This document shows, one piece after another, positions 14,253 through 34,961 of a stretch of 64,000 nucleotides of DNA. A program made the position numbers and the translations under genes. This DNA is from Thalassotalea sp. (GTDB lineage: Bacteria > Pseudomonadota > Gammaproteobacteria > Enterobacterales > Alteromonadaceae). The DNA lies in contig JAKVCY010000013.1 of the NCBI GenBank assembly GCA_022448425.1, positions 1-64,000 of the forward strand, written 5' to 3'. Within the stretch, counting starts at the first letter, position 1. Each line of letters opens with the position of its first letter. The notes under the pieces were generated by a model. The model saw only the letters and a list, made by a program, of their open reading frames with translations, made no database searches and had not been told where the DNA came from.

Positions 14253-14876
14253 TTAGCCAAAGAATAAACGCCACAACCAGCTTTTGTTTAAGTCCTCTTC
14301 GCAACTCTTTAGCTGACTTGAATAACGACGAGCACGGTTATCCACTTTACGTGATACTTTAACCAACCATGGTTTTTTCTTGTAGCTTTTACGTTTAAAA
14401 CCACCCCAGCCTTCGTGATAATTTAGGTATTGATTATAGGCATCCCACTTAGACACTTTATTAAGTTTATTGGTTTTGAAGATAAACCACCCCATAAAGT
14501 CAATGGCATCATCGAAATCGTCCCGGTCTGCGCCAGAGTTGCCAGTTTCACGGATATAGTCGTCCCAAGTCATTGTCTTTGCTTGCGAATAACCGTACGC
14601 ACTACTCACACGTCCCCAAGGAATAAAGCCGAGCAAATAGTCTCTTGGTGGCAGCGCTTTAGCTTTGAATGAGCTCTCTTGGTACATCATACTCATCGGC
14701 ACGTGAATAGGAACTCCCCAGCGGTCTCTCATATCTTTGGCCGCAAAATACCAATCGCGGTGCTCTCGAAATATTTCACAAAGATTTTCTGGGTTTTTAG
14801 GGGGTGGCGTAGCACAACTCGCTAGCAAGAAACTGCAGCAAACAGCAAAAATTAACGACTGTAGTTTACTATTCAT
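14253..14876 (-). CDS. Lipoprotein with lytic-transglycosylase (SLT)-like domain
   Basis: Lipobox LLASC; VPMSMMYQESSFKA (catalytic-Glu-like ES), SAYGYSQAK, YNQYLNYHEGWGG. Confidence 0.75.
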   Translation of the reverse strand: MNSKLQSLIFAVCCSFLLASCATPPPKNPENLCEIFREHRDWYFAAKDMRDRWGVPIHVPMSMMYQESSFKAKALPPRDYLLGFIPWGRVSSAYGYSQAKTMTWDDYIRETGNSGADRDDFDDAIDFMGWFIFKTNKLNKVSKWDAYNQYLNYHEGWGGFKRKSYKKKPWLVKVSRKVDNRARRYSSQLKSCEEDLNKSWLWRLFFG

Positions 14877-14952
14877 AGGTCGACAGACACATCAAGAAAA
14901 TACCGATTTTTCGCTATCATGCCAGAGCAATAAAAAAAAATCTCAAATAAAT

Positions 14953-15055
14953 TTGAACTATCAAGCAACTAGGTACTCTCACTAAGCGAGAGACTTTTGT
15001 TATATTTCCCTTAATTGTATTGTTGACGCGCTACTTAAGTATGCGCGTTTTTTTT
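14953..15055 (+). ncRNA. Candidate small RNA unit 1 (promoter-like TTGAAC at 14953, RNA about 14987-15055)
   Basis: TTGAAC-N17-CTCTCA; GCGAGAGACTTTTG..TTTCCCTTA; terminator ACGCGC-TACTTAAGTAT-GCGCGT-T8. Confidence 0.6.
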
Positions 15056-15224
15056 GTCTGTTACTTTTGTTCTGTGACTTTTGAAGAGCCAGATGATGTA
15101 AGTTTCACGAGCAAAGCCCATTAATAACAGTGCGTATTGGATTTTCTTATTTGATACCCCACCTCTGCTTAATTTGCTACTTGTCCGGTATTTATCTAGT
15201 AGAAAGAAAAATATTTAAAAATTT

Positions 15225-15344
15225 TTGAACTAATTCAAAAACCAGTGTTCTTATTAAATGAGAGGCTTACTCCCTTAGTGTTTCATGTTTATATTTTTGT
15301 TTATATAGAGCGCGCGTTAATGATTAGTTAACGCGCTTTTTTTT
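15225..15344 (+). ncRNA. Candidate small RNA unit 2 (TTGAAC at 15225, RNA about 15258-15344)
   Basis: TTGAAC-N17-TTCTTA; AAATGAGAGGCTTACTCCCTTAGTGTTTCATG; terminator GCGCGTTAA-TGATTAG-TTAACGCGC-T8. Confidence 0.65.
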
Positions 15345-15573
15345 ACCCCATATTTAGTGTGCAATGTATAGAGCTTTAACGTTTAGTGCGTTGTCCTCAG
15401 TTGCGAGAACTAGCTTTCGCTTTAATTAAATCCAATATAAGCCGTTCAAACCATTAAAAACTTCTCTAGGTTTCGAAGTAATAAAAGCTATTACTTTCCA
15501 TGCCCTTACATTGTATATCTGGGCTCAAACCATGCCTAAGGATATCGAATAATGACAAACTTATTCATTTGAT

Positions 15574-15679
15574 ATGAAACTTATCTGAATACTTGCGGTC
15601 ATATTAAATGAGAGGTTTTTATTTCCCTTAGTGTTTCATGAAAGCTTAACGCGCTTACACCAGTTAGCGCGTTTTTTTT
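15574..15679 (+). ncRNA. Candidate small RNA unit 3 (RNA about 15607-15679)
   Basis: TTAAATGAGAGGTTTTTATTTCCCTTAGTGTTTCATG, nearly the same as unit 2; terminator ACGCGCT-TACACCAGTT-AGCGCGT-T8. Confidence 0.65.
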
Positions 15680-15799
15680 GTCTAGAATTTTGCCTACAAC
15701 AAGCCCTGTTTAGTTCCCCAAAAAACAATCATCAAAAGCTTCAACTGAAATGCATCAATAACCATACTTGTACTTCGCAGAACAACAACTGTTTATTTT

Positions 15800-15897
15800 T
15801 TGAACCAATTTAAAAAGGCGTAGTCTCATTATTGTGAGCAAACCTCCCTAGACTGCTTTCTTGATTCTAGTAGCGCGTTGCCCTAACGCGCTTTTTT
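15800..15897 (+). ncRNA. Candidate small RNA unit 4 (TTGAAC at 15800, RNA about 15832-15897)
   Basis: TTGAAC-N17-GTCTCA; TTGTGAGCAAACCTCCCTAGACTGCTTTC; terminator AGCGCGTT-GCCCT-AACGCGCT-T6. Confidence 0.55.
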
Positions 15898-16006
15898 GGC
15901 TTGGCTTCTTGAGCTCTCCTTGCTCCTATCCTCTTGTGCCTCTCCCTTTGTTCTTCAATATCAACATGCTCCAAACATCAATTGCTTTAATGCTGCTTTC
16001 CGCTGC

Positions 16007-16043
16007 AAAAAAAGAGCGCCCAAATTAGGGCGCTCTTTTTTTA
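16007..16043. terminator. Bidirectional-looking terminator downstream of gshA
   Basis: aaaaaaagagcgcccaaattagggcgctcttttttt. Confidence 0.85.
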
Positions 16044-16084: not shown

Positions 16085-17728
16085 CTATTGCTGACTAAAG
16101 TAATTTTCCAAGAAACTATCAAAATCTAAAGTGTCTGCTTGCTCTATAGCTAACTGATCTTGATGAGATTGTTGCGAGGTTTCTTGTAGGTGTTCAAAAC
16201 TAAACGCTTGATAGTCATTGGCTAAATGCTGAGCGCGATACTGTTCGGCCAATTCTAAGGCCAATGCAGTAAAACGCACATTTTGCTCGACGACTAAATT
16301 AAGTATTTTTGCAGATGGAGTAAGGCGACTATCATTGATTTTAGCGAACTCGGTTTTCGTTGCTTGCTGGTAATGCTCATCTCCATAGGCTTTATCAAGC
16401 AATTTACTTATCTCTGTAAACTCGCCAAACAACACATTCCCCCACTCAGGAATTGATTTGCATTCACCGTCATCAAGTAATCTTAACTCTGGGTCTCTAC
16501 CACGCAGAACTACTTCATCCATATTCGACTCATAAGTCTTTTGTAGCTCAGCAGTCATCGCTGGACTAGGCGCTAATGCACAATAAGTTAAAAATACATC
16601 TAAGAAGCGAACTTGCTCTAAACTAATGCCAGTACTTGCAAAAGGGTTCACATCTAACGCACGAACTTCGATATATTCGACACCTCTGCGGTTTAACGCC
16701 TCCGAAGGCTTTTCGCCTGAACGTGCAACTCGCTTGGGCCGAATAGGTGCATAAAGTTCATTTTCGATTTGTAATACATTGCTATTCAGTTGACGGTACT
16801 CGCCATCAACCTTAACACCAATATTTTCGAAATCTGCTGACTTAAGGGAGATCGCTTCTTTAACACCACTAACATAGCTTTCTAAATTGTTATAACAAAT
16901 GTTAAGCGCAGACTGTGCACTGTTGGTGTAACCAAGGTCGCTCATTCGTAAAGAAGTCGCATGCTCTAGATATAAATAACCATTATCCGAACGTTTGAAT
17001 GGCAAGTTTTGCGGTTTACCCTGTAAGAATGAACCACAAATAACAGGAGAGCTGCCATACAAATATGGAATAAGCCAACACAAGCGTTTGTAATTTCGGA
17101 TAAGCGCAAAATATCTCTCTGAGATAAACTCTTGTAGCGGTCGACTATCACCATCGATTTTTTGCACGGTCCGCCAAAAGTCCTCAGAGAAGGAAAAATT
17201 AAAGTGAATACCAGAAATAACCTGCATCATGCTTCCGTAGCGGTTTTTGAGCCCCTGACGGTATACAGTCTTCATTTTACCTATATTCGAACTTCCGTAC
17301 TGAGCTAACGGTATCTTGTCGTCGTCTTCAACAAAACACGGCATGCTCAGTGGCCAAAGCAATTCGCCATCGATATTTTCATAGGTATAACGCTGAATAT
17401 CTTTGAGTTGCTGCAGTGTAGTTTCGGCTGACTGGCTAACTGGGGTAATGAACTCCAGCAAGGTTTCCGAGTAATCTGTCGTGATGTATGGATGTGTAAG
17501 TGCCGACCCTAAGCTTTCTCGGTGCGGCTGTTCAGATAACTGCCCTTCTTTTAAGACTCTTAACGCCTCTCGTTCAACACCACGTTGAATACCAGTTAAC
17601 GCCGATAGGTTTTCGGATAAAGAAAAAGCCGACAAGTAGTCTGATAATGAAGTTGTCAAATTAGCTCCGCTGCGCAGCGCATTTTTAAATTGTTTACTTC
17701 TATGTAAGGGTAATTGAAGATAATTCAA
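16085..17728 (-). CDS. gshA: Glutamate-cysteine ligase
   Basis: GIQRGVEREALRV, TDYSETLLEFITP, YIEVRALDVNPF. Confidence 0.95.
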   Translation of the reverse strand: MNYLQLPLHRSKQFKNALRSGANLTTSLSDYLSAFSLSENLSALTGIQRGVEREALRVLKEGQLSEQPHRESLGSALTHPYITTDYSETLLEFITPVSQSAETTLQQLKDIQRYTYENIDGELLWPLSMPCFVEDDDKIPLAQYGSSNIGKMKTVYRQGLKNRYGSMMQVISGIHFNFSFSEDFWRTVQKIDGDSRPLQEFISERYFALIRNYKRLCWLIPYLYGSSPVICGSFLQGKPQNLPFKRSDNGYLYLEHATSLRMSDLGYTNSAQSALNICYNNLESYVSGVKEAISLKSADFENIGVKVDGEYRQLNSNVLQIENELYAPIRPKRVARSGEKPSEALNRRGVEYIEVRALDVNPFASTGISLEQVRFLDVFLTYCALAPSPAMTAELQKTYESNMDEVVLRGRDPELRLLDDGECKSIPEWGNVLFGEFTEISKLLDKAYGDEHYQQATKTEFAKINDSRLTPSAKILNLVVEQNVRFTALALELAEQYRAQHLANDYQAFSFEHLQETSQQSHQDQLAIEQADTLDFDSFLENYFSQQ

Positions 17729-33851: not shown

Positions 33852-34961
33852 TTATTCCTGGATGTATTCTACAACTTCCAAGCCAAACCCAGATAGTGAA
33901 TGATATTTCGTTTGCGAGCTCAGTAAGCGCATTTTCCCGACGCCTAAATCAGCTAATATCTGCGAGCCAACACCGACATTACGCGACCCAACGTGACGCT
34001 TAACTTCTTTAATCGTCTCGCCTGCATCTAATTTGGCATATTTCTGTACTTGCTCAATTAAGCTATCAGGCGACTCGTGTTTACCAAGTAATACCAGCAC
34101 ACCGCCCTCGTCAGCAATACGTGATAAAGCATCGCCAATTGGCCACTTGTTAATGCTGTCACGTTGGCTAAAGAGTAAATCTCTGAAAGTGTTTTCTAGA
34201 TGCACTCTCACTAATGTTGGCTTGTCTGATGTTATCTCACCTTTGGTCAAAGCAAAATGCGCTTGGCCATCAATGGTGTCTTTAAATACGGTTAAATCGA
34301 ACTCACCAAACGACGTCGGTAACTTACATTGAGAGATACGCTCAATCGTCGTTTCATTAGCGTTGCGGTATTCAATAAGGTCAGCAATTGTACCTATTTT
34401 TAAGTCATGCTTTTCTGCAATTTTCTCAAGATCCGGGCGACGTGCCATGGTGCCGTCTTCATTAAGAATTTCAACAATTACGGCCGCTGGCTCTAAGCCA
34501 GCTAAACGCGCTAAATCTACACCAGCTTCTGTATGACCAGCTCTGTTTAAGACGCCACCATCTTTAGCAATGAGTGGGAAAATATGGCCCGGTTGCACGA
34601 TAGAGTTTTCATCTGCATTTGGTCCAACAGCGGCAAGAATCGTTGTTGCGCGGTCTGCTGCAGAAATACCAGTTGTTACCCCTTCAGCAGCTTCGATAGA
34701 AACAGTGAAATTAGTGGTAAATTGCGCATCATTCTTATCCACCATCAGTGGTAGTTTTAACGTTTCACAGCGTTGACGTGACATCGGCAAACAAATCAAT
34801 CCACGGCCATGAGTAGCCATGAAGTTAATTGCTTCTGGTGTAACGAGCTCGGCTGCCATGATGAAGTCACCTTCATTTTCGCGATCTTCGTCATCCATCA
34901 AGATCACCATCTTACCTTGCTTGATGTCCTCTATAATTGCGTGTGGCGTATGTAATTGCAT
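33852..34961 (-). CDS. ribBA: 3,4-dihydroxy-2-butanone-4-phosphate synthase with GTP cyclohydrolase II-like domain
   Basis: [45 protein letters not shown]; divergent RibA-like C-domain. Confidence 0.9.

Follow-up and report, generated by a model that had tools for sequence, protein, structure and literature searches.

Several small RNA (sRNA) systems offer points of comparison for the array described here. In Escherichia coli, micA is flanked by gshA and luxS and runs opposite to both (PMC2956633, PMC4618604), an arrangement also found in the locus sequence compared here, and its sequence reads GAACTC-N16-TCTGA-N6-GAAAG. According to a review, MicA is restricted to Enterobacteriaceae (PMC4618604). 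Several sibling sRNAs whose roles overlap typically belong to the sigma-E response (PMC11005410, PMC7602753), for which the published enterobacterial promoter elements are GGAACTTTT and GTCAAA (PMC1804206). In alpha-proteobacteria, the hairpins of alpha-r14 / cuckoo RNAs expose the C-rich anti-Shine-Dalgarno motif CCUCCUCCC in unpaired form (PMC10746234). Furthermore, the Neisseria siblings NgncR_162/163 (NmsR) use single-stranded regions to pair with, and so block, ribosome-binding sites (PMC9973317). A literature search returned no report of an sRNA array family between gshA and an SLT gene.

Such an array occupies the gap between an SLT-like lipoprotein gene (14253..14876, minus strand) and gshA (16085..17728, minus strand) in the Thalassotalea window, the whole analyzed stretch of 64,000 nucleotides. 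The array proved to be genuine, and it is both conserved and structured. Its four units, all on the plus strand and convergent with gshA, lie where the earlier note had placed them, and each combines a promoter, a predicted RNA of ~60–85 nt and a GC-rich intrinsic terminator with a T-run. In unit 1, the promoter GAACTA-N16-TCTCA (14955..14981), with -35/-10 elements and spacer as in the rpoE promoter, precedes an sRNA and terminator (14988..15055) with a MicA-like 5' end, kept in 6/7 Thalassotalea genomes. Unit 2 has the promoter GAACTA-N16-TCTTA (15227..15253) and an sRNA (15260..15344) in which a UCCCUU-exposing hairpin is followed by the terminator; unit 3 has AAACTT-N16-TCATA (15577..15603) and an sRNA of the same type (15610..15679). 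In unit 4, GAACCA-N16-TCTCA (15802..15828) is followed by an sRNA (15834..15897) with a CCUCCCU-exposing hairpin and a GCGCGUU..AACGCGC terminator. The predicted RNA starts (~14988, ~15260, ~15610 and ~15834) shift slightly from the 5' ends proposed before (14987, 15258, 15607 and 15832), and the T-runs end at 15055, 15344, 15679 and 15897. The promoter of unit 3 had been described as a weaker version, which proved wrong: its box had been overlooked and has the same geometry as in the other units. A generic terminator scan gave clean calls for units 2 and 4 only. The palindromic gshA terminator (16007..16042, no strand assigned) lies outside the array. The region had been taken to lack a credible coding sequence, and no conserved ORF was found over the units, whose loop lengths differ by non-multiples of three. 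An attenuator or leader peptide was likewise rejected because no plus-strand gene lies downstream and the loop lengths do not keep a reading frame.

Unit 4 of the window (15824-15850) has partly lost its 5' stem, carries GUGAG in place of GAGAG and lies 5 nt from its -10 box; it may therefore be weakened, and it is intact in relatives of the window genome. Elsewhere in the window, an Rfam V_AS9 match (34760-34864, plus strand, 53.6 bits) runs antisense within a long minus-strand ORF (33852-34961), which we take to resemble a ribB-type gene; the match probably reflects conservation of the coding sequence and not a gene for an RNA.

The promoters of the units follow the pattern GAACT[T/A]-N16-TCNNA, with the RNA start usually 6 nt further, and their assignment to the sigma-E class is strongly supported at the level of sequence. 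The form AAC[TC][TA]-N16-TCNNA was present in 82/82 units extracted across the wider group, a count that is partly circular, as the units were chosen with a looser promoter filter (spacing 14-19). Independently of this filter, 48/49 and 33/34 hits of RNA models built without the promoter were preceded by the box at exactly this spacing, the set of 34 consisting of copies away from the gshA locus; the pattern occurs in 0.115% of random 45-nt windows. In addition, GAACTT-N16-TCATA lies upstream of rpoE in 7/7 Thalassotalea genomes, with the -35/-10 elements and 16-nt spacer of the units, as expected since the sigma-E gene is autoregulated. The start GA[GA]AG is found 6 nt from the -10 box in 76/82 units, the same gap as in E. 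coli micA. A sigma-70 promoter scan detected none for any of the four units, and the sigma-70 reading was rejected because of this empty scan and the fit of the boxes to sigma-E.

Relatives were gathered with an SLT protein search, comparing the flanks of the hits, and from genus and family genomes; the record CANLNK010000004.1 is closely related to the window. The gene order gshA / gap / SLT is preserved across Colwelliaceae. At least one unit of promoter, RNA and terminator was present on the array strand in 59/69 homologous gaps vs 1/69 on the opposite strand, which places the array beyond chance. Four units were found in 6/7 Thalassotalea genomes and three in the remaining one, with the order of types unchanged; the window's own unit 4 fell outside this pattern search and was seen directly in the sequence. 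Across Colwelliaceae, loci hold between one and six units (six in a Colwellia locus), and ~75/300 family genomes carry members. In an order-wide sample, members were present in 12/395 genomes, nine of them Colwelliaceae. Lack of conservation in related genomes had been named beforehand as evidence against a multicopy sRNA family arising by duplication and divergence; the units are conserved across Colwelliaceae, and synteny, unit extraction and the two RNA models all support that family.

Some genomes in several genera hold additional copies at unrelated loci. In Cognaticolwellia, Thalassomonas and relatives (L182-L200 except L197), additional type A copies occur outside the gshA locus, often as pairs or triplets spread over a few kb, and several adjoin genes judged by eye from their sequence to be katG-like and MtfA-like. 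A search of the flanks of the additional copies found no common neighbor gene. These distant copies bear on the possibility that the plus-strand elements act in cis on gshA or the SLT gene, either as antisense or by blocking transcription. Such action would fit their convergence with gshA and the effect of E. coli MicA on the adjoining luxS mRNA (PMC2956633), but it is highly unlikely, given that copies far from gshA retain sequence and promoter and that terminators end all units ahead of gshA.

Three types of unit can be distinguished: unit 1, units 2 and 3 (type A), and unit 4 (type B). Unit 1 starts with GAGAGACUUUUGUUAUAUUUCCCUU, and its predicted 5' structure is weak. Type A starts with GAGAGGCUU..UUUCCCUUAGUGUUUCAUG, and UCCCUU forms the loop of a hairpin in its predicted consensus fold. 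Type B starts with GAAAGCAAAACCUCCCUGGACUGCUUUC and exposes CCUCCCU. Covariance models excluding the promoter were built for type B (R1, from unit 4 types only) and type A (R2). Members were found in 73/300 Colwelliaceae genomes and 18/52 genera with R1, and in 76/300 genomes and 19/52 genera with R2. Within the window, units 2 and 3 rank next after unit 4 under R1 (E 0.013 and 0.017); since this model derives from unit 4 types alone, the ranking suggests a common origin of types A and B. Covariation is strong in type B, where both-sided changes occur in 11/16 pairs, 97.6% of cells are paired and 0/500 shuffles score as high, and present in type A, with 71 cells showing both-sided change vs 24 in shuffles, although both alignments were fitted to the models and the counts are thus biased towards structure. 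Even so, covariation partly refutes a reading of the units as a mobile or REP-like repeat of intergenic DNA that brings along its promoter and terminator but regulates nothing itself. The additional copies at unrelated loci in several genera would suit such a repeat, but the main locus is syntenic and promoter, hairpin and loop are clearly constrained over many genera, which leaves this explanation with next to no credibility.

Searches of Rfam at gathering and permissive thresholds gave no family above threshold within the array, and the two calibrated models supplied here are both absent from that database. Arrays at L081, L087 and L013 gave repeated weak suhB/mmgR matches (20-26 bits, threshold 41), which probably stem from the C-rich loop and terminator, and Thalassotalea algicola (L013, 3803-3965, plus strand) gave a weak NrrF match (30.6 bits, E 0.026, threshold 60). 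With RybB, VrrA, MicV and MicL the units appear to share sigma-E promoters, but tandem arrays are not described for these sRNAs in the literature searched, and no Rfam match linked the array units to any of them. Unit 4 contains ACUGCUUU within a stem arm, which presumably recalls the RybB 5' end. Like the alpha-r14 / cuckoo RNAs, the array hairpins expose a C-rich motif, but promoter and bacterial class differ; CCUCCUCCC was absent from the unpaired regions of the units, which carry CCUCCCU or UCCCUU. The resemblance to NgncR_162/163 (NmsR) lies in the occurrence of sibling sRNAs with single-stranded regions for pairing, predicted only in the case of the array, whereas no sequence relation exists beyond a chance-level Rfam score.

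The closest parallel is with MicA (RF00078). In both cases, the locus has gshA on one side and a further gene on the other, both encoded on the opposite strand, and a sigma-E promoter, predicted from sequence for the array, with a 16-nt spacer stands directly upstream of the RNA start, 6 nt from a GA-AG 5' end. Both RNAs measure ~70 nt and close with an intrinsic terminator, and unit 1 has GA-AGAC..UUUGUUAU..UCCCU in common with MicA. The differences are that E. coli has one unit and Colwelliaceae up to six, that the neighbor is luxS in E. coli and the SLT lipoprotein gene at the array, and that in units 2-4 UCCCU sits in the loop of a hairpin. In alignments to MicA begun at the RNA start, unit 1 outscored 3000/3000 shuffles (p<=0.0003) and unit 3 reached p 0.004-0.017; units 2 and 4, aligned alone in the same way, were not significant against shuffles. 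For the MicA 5' seed GAAAGACGCGCAUUUGUUAUCAUCAUCCC, these alignments give a mixed picture (unit 1, p<=0.0003; unit 3, 0.017; units 2 and 4, not significant). First, SLT-proximal units of other genera were marginal.

Beyond Colwelliaceae, a survey of 30 genomes found MicA or MicA-like units 3' of gshA, in convergent orientation, in several further families of the order. Idiomarina carries a single sigma-E-type unit between gshA and SLT in 6/6 loci (L111-L115, L118). The gshA-locus units of Idiomarina and three other families aligned to MicA with p 0.0003-0.004; one further candidate at the gshA locus (L399) was not significant. GUUCA-UCCCC-UGAAC, a possible short hairpin, is present in most of the Idiomarina loci. 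The Rfam MicA search of the order gave matches in 21/296 genomes, 0 of them in Colwelliaceae; MicA-like sigma-E units in the 3' flank of gshA in two families (L396 and L406) were missed by it. Against enterobacterial loci, R1 found micA weakly (E 0.02 and 0.39 in 86 kb), and R2 gave a single weak match (L379, E 0.77).

A sigma-E sRNA family could also have arisen independently at gshA, its resemblance to MicA reflecting only a common promoter type and a short pyrimidine-rich seed. The Rfam MicA model (cut-off 41 bits) matched no unit and no Colwelliaceae genome, clear MicA similarity is confined to unit 1, and the type A and B hairpins fold unlike MicA. Nevertheless, an independent origin appears rather unlikely, as the gshA side, the strand and the promoter-to-start distance are all as in micA and other families of the order have MicA-like units beside gshA. 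Shared locus, strand, promoter geometry, the similarity of unit 1 and the MicA-like units in other families indicate that the array probably descends from the micA locus, its likely place of origin, without being a member of the Rfam MicA family. The preferred reading, to which we assign a probability of roughly 70%, is that the window holds four RpoE-dependent, trans-acting sRNA genes at the micA position, which arose when a MicA-like ancestor was duplicated in tandem and the copies diverged. The earlier note was thus right about the family, without having recognized the sigma-E promoter type, the micA position beside gshA or the three unit types.

Under the proposed mechanism, envelope stress would release RpoE, which would fire all four promoters, and Hfq would then engage the U-tails of the resulting 60-85 nt RNAs. 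The UCCCU(U/G) segment, in the first hairpin or 5' region, would pair at the ribosome-binding sites of outer-membrane protein mRNAs and lower the synthesis of these envelope proteins. Both Hfq dependence and Shine-Dalgarno targeting had been suggested before and are plausible. The target step is modeled on the known role of MicA, RybB, VrrA and MicV (PMC11005410, PMC7602753). When 1,682 translation starts from 2.0 Mb of a single related species were scanned, candidates emerged without specific enrichment, the top hits were not specific, and outer-membrane enrichment among the hits was no better than with shuffled seeds. Porins are a classic target of sigma-E sRNAs, and type A finds its best antisense match over 15 nt (13/15) in a porin leader of one species; as a conserved target this site was rejected because it is absent from orthologues. 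MicA itself depends on Hfq and represses ompA. Two OmpA-like leaders carry AAGGGA or AGGGAA at the ribosome site, and OmpA leaders ranked only moderately in one genome. The array probably silences envelope mRNAs via exposed UCCCU(U/G) loops, and a function in envelope homeostasis is our best guess.

Altogether, MicA, so far regarded as limited to gut-type bacteria, appears to have marine relatives that have duplicated and diversified. On balance, we lean towards a micA locus far older than Enterobacteriaceae, with Colwelliaceae carrying a sigma-E sRNA battery of one MicA-like unit and two new types, which differ in their loops and presumably in their targets, some having spread elsewhere. If true, this would provide a natural series, from one unit in Idiomarina to six in Colwelliaceae, for watching a stress sRNA duplicate and gain new seeds, and would identify what is likely the non-coding branch of envelope stress signaling across a large marine bacterial group.
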